64,000 bases of DNA from the NCBI RefSeq assembly GCF_004339575.1, contig NZ_SMFV01000001.1, positions 239,119 through 303,118 of the forward strand, read 5' to 3'. Under the pieces are notes generated by a model. The model had not been told where the DNA came from and searched no databases. It was given only the letters and a program-made list of their open reading frames with translations. The translations under genes were made by a program, and so were the position numbers. Shown one piece after another: positions 4,465 through 29,711 of the stretch (the stretch's first letter is position 1; each line of letters opens with the position of its first letter). This stretch comes from Phorcysia thermohydrogeniphila (GTDB lineage Bacteria; Aquificota; Aquificia; Desulfurobacteriales; Desulfurobacteriaceae).

Positions 4465-5031
4465 TTAATGGTGGTTGAGTCCGTACTTATTAATTTTCCT
4501 ATATAGGTTAGATATATCTATCTCCATGAAAGCTGCCGCCTTTTTAAGGTCTCCGTTAAATTTTTTGAGAACTTCAAGGATGTAGAGTTTCTCAAACTCC
4601 TCCCTTGCCTTTTTTAAAGGGAGTTCTAAAAATTCAGAGAGAGCTCTACTATCTAACCTCTGACCGGATAGGAAAGAGCGGGCACTCTCTATCACTGAAA
4701 GGAGCTTATCGTACTTAATCGGTTTTTCTATAAAGTCAAAGGCGCCGAGTTTCATGGCCTTTACCGAAGTTTCAACAGTGCCATGACCGGAAACTATGAT
4801 TACGGCTATTTTCTGGGTTAGCCCCTCTTCGTGAAGTGTTTTGAGAACTTCCATGCCAGAAGTTCCCGGTAAGAAAAGGTCAAGAATCAGGATATCGGGT
4901 TCAAGCTCTGAAAGCCTTTCCAGAACTTTAGTACCTATCTCCTCCGTAAATACCTCAAAACCTTCCTCTTCAAGAATTTCCCTCAGGGTTTCCCTGATAC
5001 TTCTCTCGTCATCAACGATTAGAACTCTCAT
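4465..5031 (-). CDS. Response regulator: receiver plus Fis-type HTH, no AAA+ domain
   Basis: A 188-residue protein with an NtrC-like receiver (acid pocket D7/D8, phosphoacceptor D51, S81 in 'VSGHG', K103 in 'IEKP') and an NtrC-like C-terminal Fis helix-turn-helix (about 160-184, 'LYRKINKYGL'). The linker 'LPLKKAREEFEKLYILEVL' is the usual NtrC sequence just before the Fis domain. The roughly 240-residue AAA+ sigma-54 activation domain that normally lies between them is absent. It therefore cannot act as a standard sigma-54 activator; RegA/PrrA/ActR-type regulators have a comparable layout. It overlaps the dnaX stop by 4 bases (ATGA coupling). No histidine kinase is nearby, so partner and regulon are unknown. 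Confidence 0.9.
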   Translation of the reverse strand: MRVLIVDDERSIRETLREILEEEGFEVFTEEIGTKVLERLSELEPDILILDLFLPGTSGMEVLKTLHEEGLTQKIAVIIVSGHGTVETSVKAMKLGAFDFIEKPIKYDKLLSVIESARSFLSGQRLDSRALSEFLELPLKKAREEFEKLYILEVLKKFNGDLKKAAAFMEIDISNLYRKINKYGLNHH

Positions 5032-6404
5032 CTCCCCTCTAAAGGCTCTAAGGAAATTATTTTCGCTCCAAACATGTTAGCTATCTTGTTTATCTTCTCG
5101 TTAGATTCAGGAGAAAGCTTCAACTCCTTCCTTTTCTGTTCAGCCTTTACCTCAATGAGCTTTACCCTCTTTCCAAATTTCTTCTCAAGCTCGCTCAGTC
5201 TATCGGATAAGACCCTATAGGCTACCGAGTTCCTTGGAACAACCTCTACCACTTCCCCTAAATCGCGAACTTCCTTGATATACCTATCAACAAATGAAGT
5301 ATTCAGTTCAGTTTTTTTTTCTGGCGGCGGAGCTCCAAGCGTAACGCTAACGTTTCCCTGAAGAATCTCCTCTATCCTCTTTAGCTCCTTAAAGTAGGAG
5401 AGCTTATACAGGTGGAAAAAGAGCGCCATGTAAGGATAGGGATGAAAGGCAACCTCCCTGTGGGCGTTGGAGAGAATCCTAAAGGCCGCTACCATTTCCT
5501 CTTCTGTAAACTCTCCACCCTGTAAAAACTCCCTCTCAACAACTTCAAGGAGCTGTCTAAGGACGAAGAGGGGATTGTAACCGCTGGCCTCAAGTTTCTT
5601 TAACCTCTCCCTTAAGGCCTGCTTATCTCCGGAGAAGGCAAGTTTAAGGAGGTCAAGGATGTCCCTTACAGTTAAAACGCCAAGGAACTCAGAAACCTCC
5701 TTAGCCCTAACTTTTCCTCCTCCAAGGGCTATCGCTTGGTCAAGGAGGCTTTCTGCGTCCCTCATACACCCTTCAGAGGCAATAGCAATCAGGTGAAGGG
5801 CTTCCTCCTCAAACTCTACATTCTCCTTCGTGCAGATGTCTTTTAAAGTTTCAACCATTAACTCTTTTGGAATCTTTCGGAAGATGAACTTCTGGCACCT
5901 TGAGAGTATTGTCGGAGGAATCTTGTCAATCTCCGTTGTAGCGAGGATGAAGACAACGTGCTCAGGAGGCTCTTCAAGGGTCTTAAGGAGGGCGTTAAAG
6001 GCCTCCTTTGTAAGCATGTGGAATTCGTCTATGATGTAGACCTTCTTCTTCCCTTTAGCAGGGGCATAGTGGACGGACTCGCGGAGCTCCCTTATCTGGT
6101 CTATACCCCTGTTTGTTGCAGCGTCCACTTCTATAACGTCCGGGAAAGCTCCCTTGGCTATTTCAATACAGTTTGGACACTCGTTACAGGGTTCTCCCTC
6201 AAAAGGGTTTTCACAGTTTAAGGCCTTTGCCACAATCCTTGCAGTTGTCGTTTTACCTACTCCCCTTGGACCGGCAAAGATGTAGGCGTGGGATACCCTT
6301 CCCGTTTTTATAGCGTTCCTGAGAGTTTCTGTTATGAACTCCTGACCGGTAACCTCTGAAAATTTCGTCGGCCTGTACTTTCTCGGTATTGCTACGTACG
6401 CCAT
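5028..6404 (-). CDS. dnaX: DNA polymerase III subunit gamma/tau (clamp loader)
   Basis: The clamp-loader ATPase, 458 residues. Walker A is 'GPRGVGKT' (45-52), a C4 zinc site is formed by C64, C73, C76 and C79, and the DExH-type Walker B region is 'VYIIDEFHML'. The AAA+ and collar domains run to about residue 355; a short tau-like tail follows. At codons 362-365 the gene contains an uninterrupted run of nine A's (5320-5312 on the minus strand). One extra A gives Asn then a TGA stop, and one A fewer gives Leu-Asn then TGA, so either slip would yield a gamma-like product of about 365 residues. This matches the known slippage arrangement of Thermus thermophilus dnaX. It heads a minus-strand run with the response regulator and bioF. 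Confidence 0.95.
   Translation of the reverse strand: MAYVAIPRKYRPTKFSEVTGQEFITETLRNAIKTGRVSHAYIFAGPRGVGKTTTARIVAKALNCENPFEGEPCNECPNCIEIAKGAFPDVIEVDAATNRGIDQIRELRESVHYAPAKGKKKVYIIDEFHMLTKEAFNALLKTLEEPPEHVVFILATTEIDKIPPTILSRCQKFIFRKIPKELMVETLKDICTKENVEFEEEALHLIAIASEGCMRDAESLLDQAIALGGGKVRAKEVSEFLGVLTVRDILDLLKLAFSGDKQALRERLKKLEASGYNPLFVLRQLLEVVEREFLQGGEFTEEEMVAAFRILSNAHREVAFHPYPYMALFFHLYKLSYFKELKRIEEILQGNVSVTLGAPPPEKKTELNTSFVDRYIKEVRDLGEVVEVVPRNSVAYRVLSDRLSELEKKFGKRVKLIEVKAEQKRKELKLSPESNEKINKIANMFGAKIISLEPLEGR
5312..5320 (-). promoter_or_regulatory. A9 slippage tract in dnaX (gamma/tau switch candidate)
   Basis: Nine consecutive A's on the coding strand read GAA-AAA-AAA-ACT in the full-length frame. 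Adding one A gives AAC-TGA; removing one gives CTG-AAC-TGA. A stop is thus reached at once in both other frames, right after the collar domain. Confidence 0.65.
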
Positions 6405-28300: not shown

Positions 28301-28895
28301 GACAAAGAACCACTACAGGGTCTACGACCTAATCTTTAGGCGTTTTATGGCCTCTCAAATGATTCCAGCAGAGGTTGAAACCGTTGAGTTAGCCGTTAAG
28401 TTGCTCCCCGAAAACATTGAAGTTGAAGAGGAAAAAGTTACGTCCATAGTTAAAGAGGGCTGGAATCTCTTAGTTCCCTTAAAGGTTGAACCTTTCCCGA
28501 CAGAACTTAAAGAGGGCGAAACCTACTACCTTAACGTTCTCTCATTCACAAAAAGGCAAGTTCCCAAAGTATTCCCATACACCCAAGGTGAACTCGTTGA
28601 AGAGATGAGAAAGAGAGGTTTGGGAAGACCTTCAACCTACGCCAAGATAGTCCAGACCCTCCTTGACAGGCGCTACGTCGTAGAGAAAGGGAAGTTCCTA
28701 TACCCGACAAAACTTGGAATAGACGTTTACACCTACCTTTCAAATAAGTTTCCCGAGTACACCTCGGAAGAGTTCACAAGGGAGCTTGAATCCCTCATGG
28801 ACAAGGTTGAGAGTGGAGAGGAGGACTATCAGGAGATACTTAAAAGGCTCAAAGTCGTGCTCCAGTTCACTCGACTAAAACCTTCTCAGGTTTAA
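25329..28895 (+). CDS. rgy: Reverse gyrase
   Basis: A single 1188-residue chain combining an SF2 helicase-like and a type IA topoisomerase half; it introduces positive supercoils using ATP and is the hallmark enzyme of hyperthermophiles. Order: N-terminal zinc finger (C10, C13, C28, C31), Walker A 'APTGVGKTTW' (101-110), DEAD-like 'VDDVD' (191-195), helicase motif VI region 'QASGRTSRMF', TOPRIM beginning at 'VVESPNKARTIANFF' (Glu 618), second zinc finger (C691, C694, C703, C706), and the nucleophile Tyr924 in 'TYHRTDSTRVS'. Both zinc fingers are complete. GTG start after GGAGGAAAGGAA. The 3' end overlaps truB by 29 bases in convergent orientation. Confidence 0.97.
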   Translation: MKIAEFHRMCPNCEGIISDERLKAGLPCESCLKEKINYRNPSEICKALGDKLLNFEDICKLDAFTEDYSRFFKEKTGFTPWSLQLTWAKRVALKKSFTMIAPTGVGKTTWGLVTSAYIDGKVYILVPTKLLVLQTVQKLSKLTDKKIVAYTGKKKEKEAIQSGDYDILITTTNFLYRNFDIIPKPFDFVFVDDVDSLLKSAKNIDKVIKLLGFTDEDVNTALRVIELKGLAAKLGSKADKKIYEEIKELEERLLERRKEIENVLVVASATSQPRSKRVKLFRELLGFEVGKSATALRNVEDVLVYTESNHLAKAVEFIKEFGSGVFVFTSADMGREYVDEVVEFLNRNGINAISYERFTPEGQESFVKGEIQAAVGIASYRNPLARGIDLPQAVRYAIFLGVPKMEFSIKLTLSPSKLFGVLLAIRELLPQEEQTKVASYLSFLKKYLGLKEETIKSSTVKERLEKVKEYIESYLSNPEFLEKVKKSETVSLKEKEGELYIVVGDAAGYIQASGRTSRMFAGGLTKGVSIMFVDDLKAFNSLRRRVHIFLEDVSFRVLNVERGKELSEKFGLPLIEKEELLKVFETVDRDRKRVREILEGKVKAETKNLLKTALVVVESPNKARTIANFFGKPVKRRVRDVDAYEINIGNKLLLLTASKGHVFDLTVRDGIWGVKEEEGRHIPVYDTIKYCTKCGEQTTEEHCSKCSGKPDVDKLTTVKALRDLALEIDEVYIASDPDTEGEKIGWDVGTVLKPYQKNMKRMEFHEVTKRAFLEALENPRELDENLVKAQIVRRVADRWVGFSLSQHLWKVFKKFWLSAGRVQTPVLGWVIERYRESKEKVGILTVETEAGSFKFRFEDIKAFKEAVADKVKVRVKRKEVVEKNPLPPFNTGELLKEASRILGLSANDVMEIAQELFENGFITYHRTDSTRVSTAGMGVAKEYISEKFGAEFLKLRSWGEGGAHECIRPTRPLDVNGLRTLVTVSGSTSTMTKNHYRVYDLIFRRFMASQMIPAEVETVELAVKLLPENIEVEEEKVTSIVKEGWNLLVPLKVEPFPTELKEGETYYLNVLSFTKRQVPKVFPYTQGELVEEMRKRGLGRPSTYAKIVQTLLDRRYVVEKGKFLYPTKLGIDVYTYLSNKFPEYTSEEFTRELESLMDKVESGEEDYQEILKRLKVVLQFTRLKPSQV

Positions 28896-29711
28896 GAGAA
28901 CCGGATTTAACAACACCTATACCCAAGAAAGTCCCCTTAGAGTAGACCTTATAGTGGCCTTCCGAAAGGTTCAATCTTATTCTTCCTCCGTTTTTAAACA
29001 GTCTTGCTTCCCTTTCGCCGAGCTCTACCTCTGGAAAGTCAATCAGACTGTCGGGGGGAAGAATGTAGTGAGATATGTTCTCCCTGTTCAGTTTCTCAAG
29101 GGGGACGGCGTCCTCAAGAGAAACGTTTCCTACTCTTGTTCTTCTCAGCTCAACGACAACGGCATCACAGCCGAGAGCTCTCCCTATATCGTGAACGAGT
29201 GAGCGAATGTAGGTCCCCGAAGAGCAACAGACTTCAAGGGTAAAGTCGGGGTAGCTAAATTCAAGGAGTTTCAGGGAATAAATTGTAACGCGACGAGGGG
29301 GGAGCTCCACCTTTTCCCCTTTCCTTGCAAGCTCGTAGGCCCTTTTACCCTTTACACGAATTGCTGAGAAAGGAGGAGGAACTTGCTCAATCTCTCCGGT
29401 AAAGTTTTTCAGAACTTCCCCGAGTTTTCCCTCCTCTACCTTTTGACAGGGAACTTCTTTTACCTCACCGTCAACGTCGTAGGTGTTACTTGAAAGCCCC
29501 AAACGTCCCTTAACAACGTAACACTTATCCTTTTTAAGCAAATACTCTGAAAGCTTCGTAGCCTTACCAATAGCCAGAATGAGAACCCCAGTGGCAAGGG
29601 GGTCAAGGGTTCCCGTATGGCCTACCTTTACATTTAGTTTTTTTTTACCCTATTAACAACTTCAAAAGAAGTTAAATTAGTTGGCTTATCTATAACTAAG
29701 AACCCCATCAT
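28867..29711 (-). pseudogene. truB: tRNA pseudouridine-55 synthase, out of frame at an A9 tract (possibly rescued by slippage)
   Basis: TruB makes pseudouridine 55 in the tRNA T-loop. The first 25 codons read from the ATG at 29711 ('MGFLVIDKPTNLTSFEVVNR') up to nine A's (29646-29638), where the frame ends in AAC-TAA. Adding one A restores 'VKKKLNVKVGHTGTLDPLATG' with the catalytic Asp and continues to the normal C-terminus. The whole gene would then have 281 residues; the measured 845 bases plus one is exactly divisible by three. The second-frame part alone (from a TTG at 29541) lacks the catalytic motif. Explanations: base-calling error, real pseudogene, or RNA polymerase slippage. It starts 2 bases after the lipoprotein stop. 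Confidence 0.85.

Follow-up and report, generated by a model that had tools for sequence, protein, structure and literature searches.

A Run of Nine A's Breaks the Single truB Gene of Phorcysia thermohydrogeniphila: A Lesion Possibly Tolerated by Transcriptional Slippage as Predicted for dnaX

The 64,000 nucleotides of Phorcysia thermohydrogeniphila DNA analysed here (the window) contain a truB gene whose reading frame breaks at a run of nine A's (A9), which raises the question of whether, and by what route, an active TruB can still be made. The gene lies on the minus strand, as do all features given below with window coordinates, and starts with the ATG at 29711, the stop codon of the upstream gene being located two bases before. 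Its 0-frame consists of 25 codons and TAA (29634–29711; MMGFLVIDKPTNLTSFEVVNRVKKN followed by the stop at 29636–29634); the run itself occupies 29638–29646 and the site reads GTA AAA AAA AAC TAA. One added A leads into the −1 frame, which begins LNVKVGHTGTLDPLATG and remains open for 256 codons from the run to a normal stop at 28867 (28867–29637). This remainder carries the catalytic motif GTLDPLATG and in a Pfam domain search matches TruB_N (PF01509), from profile position 8 onward, and both C-terminal domains, TruB_C_2 (PF16198) and TruB-C_2 (PF09157). A preliminary description had reported 25 truB codons running into A9 and then AAC TAA, a break that one added A would mend; the window sequence and a reading of both frames bear this out, and the homopolymer count agrees with its statement that the A9 runs of truB and dnaX are the longest of the window.

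The −1 frame, read from stop to stop, opens a few codons before LNVKVGH, ahead of which it has no start codon. There is also none between A9 and the catalytic GHTGTLDP, the first ATG, GTG or TTG 3′ of the run being a TTG at codon 32 after it, past the catalytic Asp. An internal start 3′ of the run is thereby ruled out, and the two frames must be joined for an active enzyme, which requires slippage, −1 ribosomal frameshifting or an error in the assembly. The position of the break does not by itself discriminate, since a replication slip, a sequencing error and a tolerated breakage would all be expected to leave their indel in the longest run.

The assembly of the source genome (Desulfurobacteriaceae; a draft of 1.62 Mb in 8 contigs, 99.4% complete) contains no further match to TruB_N, and thus no second truB, for which the preliminary description had advised looking. 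TruB matches were found in 38 of 40 relatives (genomes of the family, the order and the class), all 38 of them without internal stops, and in the 25 relatives that were read, a genome of the same genus included, the motif region is intact. The homologues thus form one uninterrupted open reading frame, as those of a pseudogene rescued by slippage should. It should be noted, however, that neither the A9 run nor the break is present in any of these 25 relatives, which counts against a rescue by slippage, and that the run and frame layout are not kept in homologues as in a programmed, conserved slippage site; as judged from these genomes the run is private to the source species. In a tree of the part 3′ of the run the terminal branch of truB is 0.14, close to the 0.13 of the sister of the same genus, so the gene has not decayed. 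Constraint on the frame has thus been normal, and has either lapsed very recently or persists. Such a branch length speaks against an old pseudogene but is equally compatible with a break of recent date, with a rescued gene and with an error in the assembly.

The gene that makes slippage a plausible answer is dnaX, which in the window encodes a full-length tau-type product of 458 amino acids (5028–6404; open reading frame and Pfam) and contains an A9 run (5312–5320) that is in frame for tau. One added A would result in a gamma-type product ending in PPEKKN. Exactly nine A's are found at the same place in 19 of the 20 assessable Desulfurobacteriaceae genomes (loci L081–L098, L189 and L190, G010 and G020 being included in the count); the exception, G013, has eight A's, and G001 and G011, in which the gene is cut by contig ends, were left out. 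The codon context is GAA AAA AAA A.. or TTA/ATA AAA AAA AA., giving the peptide EKKT in most genera and LKKN or IKKN in genus g7. The run is always spelled with AAA in spite of the fact that AAG is the commoner lysine codon of the window (1030 AAG and 760 AAA, i.e., 42% AAA), and in the family both other frames stop within about 20 codons. None of eight dnaX genes from other families of the class has a run above seven.

Conservation of run length among homologues is a criterion for purposeful slippage (PMC1088944). In Thermus thermophilus dnaX, an A9 run is described as giving rise to tau and gamma by transcriptional slippage (Larsen et al., 2000; PMC1088944; PMC5009743), and the window dnaX has the same layout: nine A's on the sense strand, near stops in both other frames, and conservation. 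The A9 of dnaX in the Desulfurobacteriaceae is therefore likely, on this comparative evidence, to be a site of programmed polymerase slippage making gamma. An earlier report of dnaX slippage in Aquificales was not found in a literature search. With respect to truB there is one difference from the dnaX of T. thermophilus: the slipped product of truB would be the long functional one rather than the truncated one.

A closer parallel to truB is provided by G022 and G023, genomes of another family of the same order, where the zero frame of dnaX stops just past A9 (KKNLKKLLPT, then a stop; runs at position 1336 of L101 and 2588 of L102). In these genomes the frame reached by one added A adds an extension of 102 amino acids that is 54% identical between the two. 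BLAST of this extension against the tau tail of the window gave no significant match, and it is by position that the segment is assigned as the tau extension. The sites read ATA or GTA followed by AAA AAA AAC TTG and are in the same phase as truB; for example, GTA AAA AAA AAC TTG of G023 matches the GTA AAA AAA AAC TAA of truB in phase. As read from its frames, the dnaX of the sister family is the mirror image of that of the window. Such a reversed organization, in which the zero frame stops past the A run and the longer product needs recoding, has been described for split dnaX genes found with GeneTack (PMC3711429). The dnaX of G022 and G023 and truB share this layout, truB differing in that it is not a conserved case. 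This suggests that +1 slippage at such sites serves the order to make a needed long dnaX product. Because the dnaX A9 is conserved in one family and dnaX is split in the other, the polymerases of the order probably, on comparative grounds, slip at A9.

Slippage being probably used for dnaX in this lineage, some in-frame truB mRNA is to be expected if the A9 of truB is real. The preliminary description had drawn this consequence on condition that the polymerase slips in dnaX, with a sequencing error as the main alternative; the single copy and the restoration by one A are in its favor. We consider it somewhat more probable than not that truB carries a recent, private lesion that is tolerated via the polymerase slippage predicted for dnaX. 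The A9 would then be genuine and recent in the source species, putting a single-copy gene out of frame, and RNA polymerase slipping on it would generate a mixed pool of transcripts, of which those with 10 (or 7, 13, and so on) A's would yield full-length TruB and the others a short dead-end peptide. The dose of TruB would drop, yet enough enzyme would be made for the lesion to be tolerated. The run would thus be an unconserved accident riding on slippage that the lineage probably uses for dnaX rather than an evolved switch. Nothing suggests regulation at truB: of the earlier wording "tolerated or even regulatory" the first half is supported by the comparative evidence from dnaX, and the second is spoken against by the run occurring in 0 of 25 relatives. 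What the analysis shows is the sequence itself, a truB present once, an A9 conserved in dnaX and a truB frame free of decay; that RNA polymerase slips at the truB run, how much TruB results and that the assembly has its A's counted correctly are inferred.

The main alternative is a missing base: truB would then be intact in the genome, its run being of ten A's or of mixed length. We regard such an error of assembly or base calling as possible, with a probability of little more than one in four. The truB run is one of the two longest of the window, the remainder of the gene is well conserved, the assembly is a draft in 8 contigs, and singleton frameshifts are often errors (PMC3711429). However, no further split gene is apparent in the tiling of open reading frames of the window, and a true run of ten A's would be the only one in the source genome, in which no A run is longer than nine. 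There are nine A9 sites in this genome. At three of them (dnaX, a ribD-like gene and a gene of 297 amino acids) the gene is in frame throughout, three are intergenic, and the one at C4:19363 lies near the end of an open reading frame of 398 amino acids on the opposite strand. Of the 55 A8 sites 30 were read, and 25 of these are in frame within clear open reading frames; those at L121 and L129 fall on gene junctions, where two genes that look unrelated overlap. The other clearly coding A8 and A9 runs that were examined thus being in frame, pervasive homopolymer errors are unsupported, which argues against wholesale errors, though a single error may have occurred. In favor of slippage, long runs are scarce. 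Below the two A9 the homopolymers of the window reach 8 once and 7 in 21 cases, and A runs of at least eight give 5 matches where 23 are expected, 4.6-fold below the dinucleotide expectation. Against synonymous shuffles, A8 and longer runs in the coding sequence of the window number 1 versus 4.5 expected, a shortfall that is reached in 7.5% of the shuffles and so falls short of significance within the window taken by itself, whereas A7 is in excess (19 versus 12.3). Slippage-prone runs thus look avoided.

If the nine A's are real, the frame could also be restored by the ribosome, a route left out of the preliminary description: a −1 shift on A_AAA_AAC gives the same frame as one added A. The heptamer is indeed present (29643–29637) in the 0-frame phase of −1 slippery sites with a stop following, and in dnaX an A_AAA_AAA heptamer is likewise in phase. 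A stimulatory structure 3′ of the truB run is unsupported, however, the fold being not unusual relative to shuffles (z = +0.91), and the run of dnaX is held at nine A's although seven would be enough for a ribosomal site. For these two reasons polymerase slippage is preferred to a ribosomal shift, which we think very improbable. Still less probable, if only slightly, is phase variation, in which replication slippage within the population would switch the run back and forth between nine A's and ten; a homopolymer near the 5′ end of truB and one base off the intact frame would suit it, but truB does housekeeping and belongs neither to the surface nor to the defence genes, and the run is absent from the relatives read. 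Finally, the A9 could be real and too little TruB made, so that pseudouridine 55 has recently been lost. Deletion of truB has no effect on exponential growth of Escherichia coli, T. thermophilus needs pseudouridine 55 only at low temperature (PMC6313347), and a recent loss would have left no decay yet. But the 38 other genomes of the family, order and class with a match keep the frame open, and a polymerase that slips at A9, if the lineage has one, is bound to give some product; genuine loss therefore seems to us unlikely, at roughly one chance in ten.

With tolerance by polymerase slippage as the preferred explanation, truB is probably a "pseudo-pseudogene" of a known kind, here in a free-living thermophile. 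Like the A9 pseudo-pseudogenes of Baranov et al. (2005; PMC1088944), its open reading frame is broken at nine A's and would be mended by a slipped A, the homologues are single open reading frames and the split is not conserved. It differs from them in that it occurs in a free-living thermophile, that comparative evidence points to A9 slippage in the dnaX of the same order and that its expression is predicted. In the poly(A)-frameshifted genes of Buchnera and Blochmannia, for which rescue by transcriptional slippage has been proposed, there is likewise a single indel in an A run and no acceleration of rate; these endosymbionts, however, are rich in AT and have over 100 coding runs of at least nine, against nine A9 sites in all here (PMC3017870). 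The dose of TruB may matter, because T. thermophilus depends on pseudouridine 55 at temperatures under 55 °C and its truB disruptant grows abnormally at 80 °C (PMC6313347). That a free-living thermophile should make an enzyme otherwise nearly universal, the tRNA pseudouridine-55 synthase, from slipped transcripts only, with A9 lesions elsewhere buffered by a slippage-prone polymerase kept throughout the lineage for dnaX and with a dose of TruB perhaps even set by slippage, for instance according to temperature, is an unlikely extension. If the preferred explanation is true, a truB that is a pseudogene to pipelines is alive, and programmed slippage for the replicase would let other genes outlive single-base lesions in A9 runs. 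The dnaX A9 across the Desulfurobacteriaceae and the split form in the sister family together offer a ready-made set of cases in which to test what a polymerase prone to slip does to a genome.

A few other A runs may be recorded. In the source genome the A9 at C4:119275 (L080/L141 in G000) lies directly 5′ of the ATG of an orphan HEPN-type protein of 219–221 amino acids, preceded by a short open reading frame in another frame; relatives of the protein are absent from the family and class, so that it is left out of account as a possible second gene broken at A9, and the ATG at the run is its own. In 13 genomes of the family about 30 of approximately 80 A9 sites besides dnaX are in frame in long open reading frames. 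G021 carries an in-frame A9 in an infC-like gene (IF-3, by motif only; L210, run at 1553). The draft genome G006 has several apparent splits at A9 or A10, among them L191 (run at 1472) and L224 and L229 (both A10). These are a point against the preferred reading, since they could reflect an assembly error or phase variation as well as tolerance. One A9 case there is an Fe-S protein (212 + 168 amino acids), which needs the other frame. In G006, too, a GH114-domain protein (L193, run at 1528) is split at A9 into 381 amino acids and a continuation of 494 in the phase of truB, so that one added A would join them; with the domain N-terminal, it is a single open reading frame of about 860–925 amino acids in eight relatives.
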